NCBI RefSeq assembly: GCF_001940455.1
Contig: NZ_MKQR01000013.1
Coordinates: 1-64,000 of the forward strand
DNA length: 64,000 nucleotides
Direction: 5' to 3'
From: Actinokineospora bangkokensis
Lineage (GTDB): Bacteria > Actinomycetota > Actinomycetes > Mycobacteriales > Pseudonocardiaceae
The notes under the pieces are model-generated. The model saw only the letters and a list, made by a program, of their open reading frames with translations. It made no database searches and was not told the origin of the DNA. Made by a program: the position numbers and the translations under genes. Shown one piece after another: positions 5,598 through 26,614 of this stretch. Position 1 is the stretch's first letter; each line of letters opens with the position of its first letter.

Positions 5598-5855
5598 TCA
5601 GGGGGTGTGGTCGTGGACGACCGCGCACCCGTCCAGGGTGGCCACCGGGGTCACGGCGGCCCGCACCTTCGACGTGGCGAGTGCGGAGGCGACCAGGGTG
5701 GCGGCGGCCAGGGCCGCGCGGGCGCCCCGGTGGGGGATGGCGACCCACGCCGCGGCGGTGGCGGCGGCGAGGGCGAGGCGGGTGGCCTCGGCGACCCTGG
5801 CGGGTTCGGTGGCCAGGAGGGTCGCGGCCGTCCTGCGGAGGTCGGGCACGGTCAC
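5598..5855 (-). CDS. Small holin-like protein
   Basis: This 85-aa protein starts at a GTG overlapping the amidase stop (GTGA) and is the last gene of the 21-kb operon. It is alanine-rich, with two hydrophobic stretches (about residues 25-40 and 46-62), and ends with a short polar tail after KVRAAVTPV. That ending resembles small holins of actinophages, which often follow the endolysin gene. No specific catalytic motif is present. The holin call rests on size, hydrophobic pattern and position after a phage-type amidase; it could instead be an unrelated small membrane protein. Confidence 0.5.
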   Translation of the reverse strand: MTVPDLRRTAATLLATEPARVAEATRLALAAATAAAWVAIPHRGARAALAAATLVASALATSKVRAAVTPVATLDGCAVVHDHTP

Positions 5856-24900: not shown

Positions 24901-26614
24901 CCGGTTCGGGCAGCGCCAGCAGCCGGGCCACCAGCGACTCGAACCCCGTGCGGAAGTTGCCCCAGCCCGAGGAGTCGGCGATCAGCGCGGTGGCCTCGGC
25001 GGGCATGTTCCGCAGCTCCGGGCGCGCGAACCCGCCCAGGAACGGGTGCCCCACCACGGGTTCGGCCGACACCAGCAGCGTCACCTTCTCCAGACCGGTG
25101 TCCGCGGCGGCGTCGACCATGTCCCGGAAGGGCAGGTCGCCGTAGACCAGGGCGGGCGGGGAGGTGGGGCCGGAGGGGAAGAACCGGCGGGTGTGGGTGT
25201 CGAGCACGACGGCCTGGTGCACCGGCCACTCGATGCGGTAGTGCCAGTTCAGCGCACCGTCGGCGCGCTCGATCGACCCGGCGAAGACCCGGGTGGGGAC
25301 CCCGGTGCGCAGCGCGATCTCCGCGGCGGGCGCGGCGGCGGTCGGGTCCGGTGTGGCCAGCGCGTCGAGCAGCTTGCGGCCCGGCTGGCCCGCGGCGAAC
25401 TGCGCGGGGGTGTTGCCCCAGGCCTGGAACACCGCGTGCGCGGCGAGGGAGTTGGCCAGCAATCGCTTGCCCAGCGGGGCGGCGACCTGCTCGGTGAGCA
25501 CCTCGCCGTCGTGGAACCAGTCGTCGGTGACCTCGTGGTCGCCCAGCGCGGTGTAGGTGGCGGTGTTGGCCAGCGCCCGGCGCACGGCCACCAACCCCTT
25601 GCGGAACTCCTCGACCCGCAGGGCGTCCTCGCGGAAGCGCGCGGCGGTCGCCTGCGCGGCGCTCGGGGTGGTGGTGCCCGCGGGCGTCGCGGGCACCTCC
25701 TGGCCCGCGGTGACCCCGAGCGCGGCGGCGACCTCGGGGTGGACGTCGGCGAGCCACTCGGTGCACTTGCCCTCGGGCCATAGCGCGTCGGACCACGTCA
25801 GCAGGTGCATGGCGGCGAACTCGGAGAACCGCAGCAGGTGGCTCGCGCCCTGGCGCGTGCGGGCGCGGGCCTTGTCCCGCACGAGGTCCTGGCGGTGCCC
25901 CGGGCGCAGGTCCGCGTCGGTGGCACCGGGCAGCGCCTCGGTGCGGCCCAGCAGCGCGGTCCCGCGCGTGGCGCACAGGTGCAGCAGGACGTCGGCCACA
26001 TCGTCGGCGTAGACCTGGTCGCCGGTCAGGAAGAGCTGCTGCGGGCGGCGGGCGGCGTCGGCGTGGTCCACCTTGAGCACGTCGTCGAGCAGCGACAGCG
26101 CGTCGGCGCCCTGGCCGTGCGGCTTGCGCCCGGAGGTGTGGAACAGGCGCAGCCGCGCCACCGCGTCCGGTGGGGTGGCGAACGAGGGCAGCGCCTTGTC
26201 CGCGGTGCCGTAGACCAAGCGGTCCCTGGCCTTCTGCGTGGTCGAGGCCACCACGCCGGGGGCCAGCAGGTGCTCGGCGGCGGTGGGCGGCACCGGGTCG
26301 GCCGCCGCGCCCTCGGCGAAGCGCACGCGGTAGCGGTGGATCGTGCCGGGCCTGAGCTGGGTCGTCCCCGCCGTGGTGGCGGTGATGGCCACCACGTGCA
26401 GGTTCGCGCCCAGGCTGGTGGTGACGGAGGTGCCCGACGCGACCGGGGTCTCACCGGTCTGCTCGGTGGCCTCCGCCAGCACCTCCAGGGTGGCCCGGCG
26501 CGCGGAGCGCAGTGCGAACCAGACCGTCGCGGACGTGCGGTCCACCCTGCGCACGACCGGTCCGGCGAGCACCAGCGGCAGGGTCGCCGGGTCCAGTGGG
26601 GGCAGTGGCGGCAC
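21911..26614 (-). CDS. PhoD-like/PG-binding/lysozyme-like chimera, 1567 aa
   Basis: First gene of the operon. The GTG at 26614 is preceded by GGAAGGGA. An N-terminal Ig-like strand region (VRRVDRTSATVWFALR) leads to a PhoD-type metallophosphoesterase domain with GDQVYADD at 198-205 and GDHEVTDDW at 358-366. The usual final SGDVH motif reads SGEVGYG (591-597), so one His ligand is missing. A peptidoglycan-binding repeat follows at about 848-893 (VLALQRDLFELGFTFVDRNG). Near 1165-1201 is a lysozyme-like motif (VEALAFFDGVNCYDNAF, then CHWTLG) with E1174 or E1176 as candidate acid. There is no signal peptide. It likely binds and perhaps cleaves cell wall. Confidence 0.8.
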   Translation of the reverse strand: MPPLPPLDPATLPLVLAGPVVRRVDRTSATVWFALRSARRATLEVLAEATEQTGETPVASGTSVTTSLGANLHVVAITATTAGTTQLRPGTIHRYRVRFAEGAAADPVPPTAAEHLLAPGVVASTTQKARDRLVYGTADKALPSFATPPDAVARLRLFHTSGRKPHGQGADALSLLDDVLKVDHADAARRPQQLFLTGDQVYADDVADVLLHLCATRGTALLGRTEALPGATDADLRPGHRQDLVRDKARARTRQGASHLLRFSEFAAMHLLTWSDALWPEGKCTEWLADVHPEVAAALGVTAGQEVPATPAGTTTPSAAQATAARFREDALRVEEFRKGLVAVRRALANTATYTALGDHEVTDDWFHDGEVLTEQVAAPLGKRLLANSLAAHAVFQAWGNTPAQFAAGQPGRKLLDALATPDPTAAAPAAEIALRTGVPTRVFAGSIERADGALNWHYRIEWPVHQAVVLDTHTRRFFPSGPTSPPALVYGDLPFRDMVDAAADTGLEKVTLLVSAEPVVGHPFLGGFARPELRNMPAEATALIADSSGWGNFRTGFESLVARLLALPEPAGAGTDADPKVRRRRVIALSGEVGYGFAARLSYEASSAFQRPGTGAVRGVLAQLTAGSARGESSATVYLHQNGTIERSKAIPAVERVGWANDRSEPLDIGFAPDPSQEGRTIQWRVPSTPAVADVTAKHTLTKNPEWRYRVDFYRHEDPDRLNPRTGAPAAVTFPPEDAKQRAKALGWYIDAATNHLGFATRWGDGKQLVGRNNLAELTFAWGDGDAKSVVQSLWWRPPNQAGGAPLTRLAVPLDVGQAPSLPVETLPKLYHDRLLVEGTVDAGDAENRKDVLALQRDLFELGFTFVDRNGRYDRKTRWAVREFQTYAKYGKVARVGSAFTRVRVALDVAGLVLKVDSAAGFPAAPFMVRVGYETLKVTEVAGTDWTVERGQVGTGAAAHEVTDAVTWLPVDTSVAGDQQWYGWASALESTSVHETRRFTGHVSGEVDTGTRTALARWKVNLWRCPVVVEGWDLVQSTGAKKQLQRLAAADGRPARVADNLWIWDETKGEVPDGIRRRAYARDFGDHWVRPAGREADTTEREKCTVIGHLTTITLPVRSADPAAKLYGPVTEPGRKECWAEAEMLPQRFTGQAITELGPGRLPTFKVIRAVAEVEALAFFDGVNCYDNAFASMGVCHWTLGARQWQSASATRPARELWDVADGELWAYFALLRARYPQAYDKVIGHAGIVPDRVWQGDGKTAAAGSTRPWDPGQRKYAARGARLDRTGTARPLNGFTAANGSGISSYGQYGELEFFRMWHWHYRFVMAARTVDDFTRAQWDMTRVRLRDVRGTRWESATGTAATLVDGATIGDVFRSEATAAMIHRLHVNGPGFVLDGHSELGAVASSEMRSVLSKAKASTPLLTWGKDPATWRAQLPPDPADPAGEPRFDQGQEHEKRLIDALNAVFIDPGPALPPVPPTADDPNPEQPADPAPHPANHGTHGQWKDPGHSMRIARAWPAWYAASGTPAMSNGSGWKLPVGDLPAEQRTLLLTRTFALDTEGLPA

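Follow-up and report, generated by a model that had tools for sequence, protein, structure and literature searches.

A four-gene DUF6603 unit, often headed by exchangeable hydrolases, within a giant-protein operon of Actinokineospora bangkokensis

The operon and its proteins

We analysed a stretch of 64,000 nucleotides from Actinokineospora bangkokensis (positions 1 to 64,000 of contig NZ_MKQR01000013.1; hereafter the window), in which seven minus-strand genes, P1 to P7, form an operon at 5598-26614 whose neighbouring genes overlap or are separated by 31 bp or less. A previous annotation made from the letters alone (hereafter the sequence-only reading) had described seven tightly packed minus-strand genes, and they were found to be as described. 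Comparison with other genomes showed that the conserved unit is P2-P3-P4-P5, not all seven genes, and that the gene ahead of it often encodes a hydrolase, of different classes in different loci.

The first gene, P1 (26614-21911, minus strand, GTG start), encodes a protein of 1567 aa with a PhoD-like metallophosphatase part (residues ~1-820), a PG_binding_1 domain (residues 850-888) and a C-terminal extension. PG_binding_1 scored over the Pfam cut-off and DUF7800 below it. P1 carries the LFLTGDQVYADD motif and is homologous (E 1e-94) to an archaeal position-1 protein, which matches PhoD (PF09423) at E 2.3e-10. After a gap of 31 bp follows P2 (21879-18256, minus strand, ATG start, 1207 aa), a member of the DUF6603 family (PF20248; E 2.3e-144, 482 bits against a cut-off of 27) whose match spans the whole domain, at residues ~440-1011. 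Its beta-strand periodicity is strong, with a beta-moment z of 7.1 versus -2.3 to 0.9 in P3-P5. No paper that we found in the open-access literature names DUF6603 or PF20248, subscription papers and preprints being outside this coverage.

P3 (18259-13265, minus strand, ATG start, 1664 aa) is joined to P2 by an ATGA overlap. Its conserved core (residues ~1-500 and 1260-1664) is split by a module (~650 aa) of propeller-like/FG-GAP type, which contains FG-GAP sites and five W..HG.P-type repeats that we take to resemble those of tectonin-type lectins. Besides the FG-GAP repeats (FG-GAP_3, Pfam E 1.8e-6), P3 matched no known family. The module recurs in P3 of three related loci (L005-L007; L numbers designate fetched loci) and of a Streptomyces longwoodensis plasmid, and P4 of two Neobacillus and one Goldbacteria bin (L020, L021, L027) contains partial matches to it; the homologous P3 regions are 800-1223 aa long in 63 of 66 cases. 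P4 (13272-8665, minus strand, ATG start, 1535 aa) overlaps P3 by 8 bases, and P5 (8659-6965, minus strand, ATG start, 564 aa) follows after a gap of 5 bp. Neither P4 nor P5 matched a Pfam, PHROG or NCBIfam family. In other loci, the archaeal P5 carries a Lamin Tail Domain, L028 has an H_lectin after P5 together with a tail-fibre-type Gp53-like_C match below cut-off, L075 has a PKD domain in a protease-like gene, and WD40 genes adjoin L115 and L126. The sequence-only reading had announced lectin, FG-GAP and wall-binding parts; the giant proteins carry FG-GAP, propeller-like and wall-binding (PG_binding_1) parts.

The last two genes are P6 (6961-5852, minus strand, GTG start, 369 aa), 3 bp behind P5, and P7 (5855-5598, minus strand, GTG start, 85 aa), which shares a GTGA overlap with P6. 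The G+C content of the window is 75%, and many long chance frames are therefore expected. The frames of P1-P5, P6 and P7 are backed by homologues in other genomes and by close gene coupling; codon-position G+C also backs P1, P2, P4 and P6, while P3, P5 and P7 failed this filter as stop-to-stop frames. The operon holds no frame beyond these seven genes.

A conserved unit often preceded by exchangeable hydrolases

A scan of the GTDB species genomes with P5 confirmed 169 loci, 80 of which were kept, and the alignment A1 combined the window with 61 of these 80. Homologues of P4, P3 and P2 stand upstream of P5, in that order: when loci on contigs too short for the comparison are set aside, P4 adjoins P5 in 73/78 loci, P3 adjoins P4 in 60/64 and P2 adjoins P3 in 41/44. 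The 12 exceptions comprise six loci with longer spacers or extensions (L034, L060, L061, L066, L068 and L072), a fusion (L083), a divergent arrangement (L041), a P2 located downstream (L043), a locus in which no P4 was seen (L078) and two Nitrospira loci with no P2 in their short upstream DNA (L014 and L017). P4 and P5 match a single open frame in L057, L083 and L084. The rows of the P5 tree come from ten bacterial phyla as well as from haloarchaeal, Streptomyces and Rhizobium plasmids, and an order that recurs across ten phyla is beyond chance. A haloarchaeal plasmid has the same P2-P5 order. The pairwise distances of P2-P5 are correlated (r 0.67-0.89, with 0/500 permutations as high), a result to which shared ancestry also contributes. 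The seven-gene order that the sequence-only reading had proposed to seek elsewhere was recovered for P2-P5 across ten phyla, and P6-P7 were seen at no other fetched cluster locus (L001-L126, where some contigs end soon after P5; P7 was searched as a single sequence).

Variants of the unit were also observed. Ten loci of Nitrospira type (e.g. L010-L015) have an additional gene, coiled-coil-like and about 280-415 aa long, between P3 and P4. The second DUF6603 copy of Chitinophaga filiformis (L114) represents a second kind of DUF6603 locus, with a Phage Tail Collar protein, DUF6603, two large unknown proteins and kelch and PQQ propeller proteins, in this order, and with P3-P5 not recognisable. 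Additionally, P3-P5 and the end of P2 were found in MT835531 (L125), an unverified Bacteriophage sp. record from human faeces, where the core is either bacterial carry-over or real; no P5 relative was found in viral contigs.

The distribution of the unit is scattered. P5 is present in 3 of the 41 near genomes and DUF6603 in 12 of 396 Actinomycetota genomes, its own genome counted in both cases, and P5 relatives occur on 14 plasmid records. In the P5 tree, Mesorhizobium sp. L-8-3 branches among Streptomyces and Sphaerisporangium, a Rhizobium plasmid pairs with Mycolicibacterium, and Williamsia pairs with Flavihumibacter, the last three being metagenome bins that are maybe misbinned. The cassette has crossed phyla, since Mesorhizobium sp. 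L-8-3 and Streptomyces resistomycificus share 69-77% identity in all four genes (P5 77%, P2 76%, P3 69% and P4 70%).

The gene in front of DUF6603 was examined in 37 stretches of upstream DNA, among them second copies, one stretch surrounding a locus fetched before (L104) and one piece from downstream that lacks DUF6603 (L121). A hydrolase adjoins DUF6603 in 21 of them, distributed among five classes: PhoD-like (11), M64-like (5), PLD (3), subtilase (2) and trypsin-like (2), with L088 and L089 counted in two classes. The N-terminal part of P1 was recognised in the 11 PhoD-like stretches, and its C-terminal part in 2 of these and on the S. longwoodensis plasmid. On that plasmid, and likewise in a haloarchaeon, DUF6603 is preceded by a PhoD-like relative of P1. 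PLD occupies position one in L088, L089 and L108, M64-like peptidases in L096, L100, L116 and L120 (and as second gene in L089), and subtilases in L110 (and as second gene in L088). In L101 and L102 the class rests on Pfam NAL1 models, one over and one below cut-off, and NAL1 is presumably trypsin-like. Class motifs were conserved in the frames tested: GDQ.YAD[DE] in 9/9 PhoD-like frames, two HKD-type motifs in 3/3 PLD frames, HExxH in 8/8 M64-like frames, GTSM[AS]AP in 2/2 subtilases and GDSG in 4/4 trypsin-like frames, two of which lie downstream of P5 in L075.

DUF6603 travels with the hydrolase and was duplicated along with it in Nitrospira, where L088 reads PLD-DUF6603-subtilase-DUF6603 and L089 reads PLD-DUF6603-M64-DUF6603, both ahead of P3. 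Tandem M64-like peptidase genes, as if cargo had multiplied, were observed before DUF6603 in L096 (Larkinella, three genes) and L100 (Spirosoma, two genes). We labelled 21 rows by hydrolase class, 20 of which are in the P5 tree (the two-hydrolase loci L010 and L011 were labelled PLD only). With five classes the minimum possible number of changes is 4; at least 7 were counted, shuffled labels gave a mean of 8.7, and 5/200 shuffles were as low as observed. These values indicate that the hydrolase classes cluster on the tree and have also been exchanged repeatedly.

The presence of signal peptides was evaluated by simple hydropathy, as the best 14-residue mean in the first 50 residues, and not by SignalP. 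The sequence-only reading had claimed giant proteins without signal peptides, and this agrees with our data: the five proteins of 1567, 1207, 1664, 1535 and 564 aa show no evident signal, and the N-termini of P1-P6 are not strongly hydrophobic (0.47-1.30). The test covered 25 proteins of five loci, one of them haloarchaeal, and 29 neighbouring hydrolase or unknown frames. By this crude measure, applied to part of the loci, the core proteins have no signal-like N-terminus, and most of the neighbouring hydrolases also appear to be made without signal peptides.

The amidase pair and the surroundings of the operon

P6 is a phage-type N-acetylmuramoyl-L-alanine amidase, as the sequence-only reading had stated: it matches PF01510 (E 6.8e-16) and the endolysin family phrog_880 (E 9e-32), and 112 phage records, the best with 46.9% identity over residues 1-171. 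On the holin-like nature claimed for P7 the observations point both ways. Its homologues adjoin similar amidases (L139, E 8e-26; L140, E 3.8e-12), but it is only weakly hydrophobic (best 19-residue mean 1.26 versus 2.25 for the L140 homologue), and it had no match in Pfam, PHROGs or the phage records. P7 is putatively holin-like, by its position and by its homologues beside similar amidases alone.

The tight coupling of the giant-protein genes to the amidase and the holin-like gene is real in this genome. The sequence-only reading had further taken the lysis cassette as a part of the system. Amidase_2 occurs somewhere in 26 of 30 cluster genomes and within 10 kb of the cluster in none of the 30 (positions compared by eye), the nearest being about 15 kb away (G041:C9, genome and contig). 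Because the other fetched clusters show no such amidase or holin genes, the point on which that reading had itself made the idea depend, the idea of a conserved release system fails. The closest P6-P7 pair lies at a separate locus of A. spheciospongiae (G003:C39; P6 73% identity, with one in-frame TGA stop), whose core cluster shows no such pair and has LexA as the next long frame after P5. The next closest pair (G143:C6; P6 63% identity) is probably in a prophage, because its neighbours, read by eye with no profile, are terminase, portal, capsid and tape-measure genes. On the S. longwoodensis plasmid, P5 is followed by a transposase as the next annotated gene.

The simplest reading of these data is that this lineage gained P6-P7 from a phage source, and the pair was possibly recruited locally for release. 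Alternatively, a phage lysis remnant may have landed behind an unrelated giant-protein operon in which it has no part, an explanation that we consider possible, if on the improbable side. It is consistent with the occurrence of the pair at one cluster only, with the copy elsewhere in A. spheciospongiae whose amidase is interrupted, and with the frequency of P6 relatives in the family (47/200 genomes at E <=1e-12, a few by the C-terminal part only). Against it, both frames are open in the window, the third-position G+C of P6 is 0.98, like other operon genes, and hardly any sequence separates P5, P6 and P7.

As the sequence-only reading had noted, no credible capsid, tail, sheath or terminase gene accompanies the pair. 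Phage structural families were found neither by Pfam in P1-P7 and nine neighbouring genes (window scanned to 37.3 kb, several short frames apart) nor, credibly, by PHROGs in P1-P7, and the operon was thus not identified as a prophage or tailocin. The family phrog_1224, labelled 'head and packaging', was rejected as a candidate: it is described as an endolysin and matches the peptidoglycan-binding part of P1 at E 0.016. Facing away from the operon, with about 410 bp in between, lies a SpoIIE-type regulator with PAS, GAF, phosphatase, anti-sigma and STAS parts (27026-29722, plus strand), and beyond it a LuxR-type gene (30591-31232); they possibly constitute a stress switch for the cluster.

Possible function of the unit

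We tentatively propose, giving it slightly less than an even chance, that P2-P5 form the conserved chassis of a so far undescribed system that spreads horizontally, in which a particle assembled in the cytoplasm carries swappable hydrolases and acts outside the cell after lysis. Since its parts apparently have no signal peptides, they would be assembled in the cytoplasm. The gene ahead of DUF6603 would often supply the swappable hydrolase, in this strain a putative PhoD-like phosphatase/phosphodiesterase with a fused peptidoglycan-binding domain, and DUF6603 would be the cargo adaptor. P3 and P4 would be large scaffold subunits, with propeller-like, FG-GAP and lectin-like modules inserted for surface binding, and P5 a connector; its residues 29-47 are highly conserved but modelled with low confidence in the monomer, and may take up their fold on a partner, for instance P4. 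Lysis would release the particle, which would then act outside the cell; in this strain the release could come from the phage endolysin-holin pair, which was added to the operon and is apparently coupled to it in translation.

The strongest support for this proposal comes from the swapping before a constant chassis, the pairing with DUF6603, the inserted modules of surface type and the lack of evident signal peptides in enzymes of often-secreted classes, as the hydrolase classes of position one are. In its fullest form, the proposal describes a new cross-domain delivery particle, with a four-subunit chassis (DUF6603, P3, P4 and P5) assembled in the bacterial or haloarchaeal cytoplasm, exchangeable hydrolases loaded by DUF6603, plug-in surface-binding modules, a spread partly by plasmids, a release by lysis and a phage lysis pair captured in at least one lineage; this we regard as unlikely.

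Several observations weigh against a particle, and among its weakest points is that both its existence and its outside action are things we infer. Sixteen of the 37 upstream stretches have no counted hydrolase (10 scanned with Pfam and 6 unscanned); the scanned ones showed nothing or other genes, e.g. a histidine kinase, a ferritin-like protein or DUF2515, and a beta-lactamase-type serine hydrolase before DUF6603 in L093 was left out of the hydrolase count. The signal test, another weak point, flagged 5 of the 29 neighbouring frames, in four cases on the conserved PhoD segment LPLxLxGPxLRR, and the highest value among 24 core, position-1 and amidase proteins was 1.79, in P2 of Streptomyces sp. 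NBC_01724, which was judged not signal-like. Signal-less proteins are moreover equally expected of an intracellular system. The clustering of class labels on the tree means that swapping is slow, 12 of the 14 plasmid records are typed non-mobilizable, no fold or PDB sequence clearly ties the core to a known particle, and the confinement of P6-P7 to one cluster counts on the same side.

The main rival to the particle is a system of intracellular defence or self-killing, in which the chassis would sense phage or damage and free the swappable hydrolase inside the cell, with the amidase and holin as extra killing effectors. The scattered presence of P5 and DUF6603, the plasmid records, the effector-like enzyme classes that swap and the lack of evident signal peptides all agree with it, and it explains scatter and enzyme swapping as well as the particle does, though it leaves the surface modules unaccounted for. 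We nevertheless judge it rather unlikely: PADLOC (2023 library) matched none of the seven proteins, no NTPase or nucleotide-binding family was found in the core by Pfam or NCBIfam, and the FG-GAP, peptidoglycan-binding, lectin and lamin-tail modules better suit surface contact.

A type 10-like release operon proper, with the amidase-holin pair as dedicated exporter and defining part of the system, seems improbable. Spanins serve cells with an outer membrane, and the subunits of Tc toxins are very large, signal-less and assembled in the cytoplasm. Type 10 systems, such as YenLC of Yersinia entomophaga, are cassettes of holin, endolysin and spanin genes that occur outside phages. In them, a phage-derived endolysin and a putative holin are linked to large signal-less proteins, as here (PMC10847048 and PMC9527704), and PMC10847048 places such cassettes inside some Tc toxin operons and separate from others, a pattern that would also fit a local recruitment of P6-P7. 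Our operon shares with them an endolysin gene outside a prophage, with no credible phage structural family nearby, and the tight coupling and the large signal-less proteins also speak for a type 10-like operon. The linkage, however, exists in this genome only, and the cargo cluster stands without the cassette at the other fetched loci; conservation of cassette with cargo, not seen here, is not required by the published cases (PMC10847048). The pair has relatives within a probable prophage and at an isolated locus, and P7 is a weak membrane candidate. With regard to the Tc toxins themselves, P1-P7 show no Tc-type family by Pfam, a separation made by Pfam and not by comparison with Tc sequences, and the swappable hydrolase with its DUF6603 partner is a feature of the present system.

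Extracellular contractile injection systems also combine signal-less cytoplasmic assembly with variable effectors; no sheath, tube or baseplate family of theirs turned up in P1-P7 or in the nine neighbouring genes scanned. That the unit is an accessory module of such systems, giving cargo or baseplate additions in trans, is very improbable: a sheath gene occurs in 5/12 DUF6603 genomes, its own included, versus 32/384 others (Fisher p 0.0027, genome size and kinship uncontrolled), its own genome (G000) has two sheath loci (C14:11388 and C16:93471) and the Collar and Gp53-like_C matches are of tail-fibre type, but 7/12 DUF6603 genomes have no sheath gene, the sheath genes of its own genome lie on C14 and C16 with the window on C13, and no sheath, tube or baseplate family was found in the frames scanned singly (the listing of a 77-frame scan covers 25 of its 151 families).

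Whichever function applies, a co-inherited set of large proteins from ten phyla and the haloarchaea has so far been unnamed and without a recognised fold. The lysis pair of the window, attached to the operon in a single genome and not seen at the clusters of the three nearest relatives (L005-L007), is a natural clue to a possible exit route of signal-less giant proteins. The recurring pairing of hydrolases with DUF6603 provides a first testable role for the DUF6603 family.

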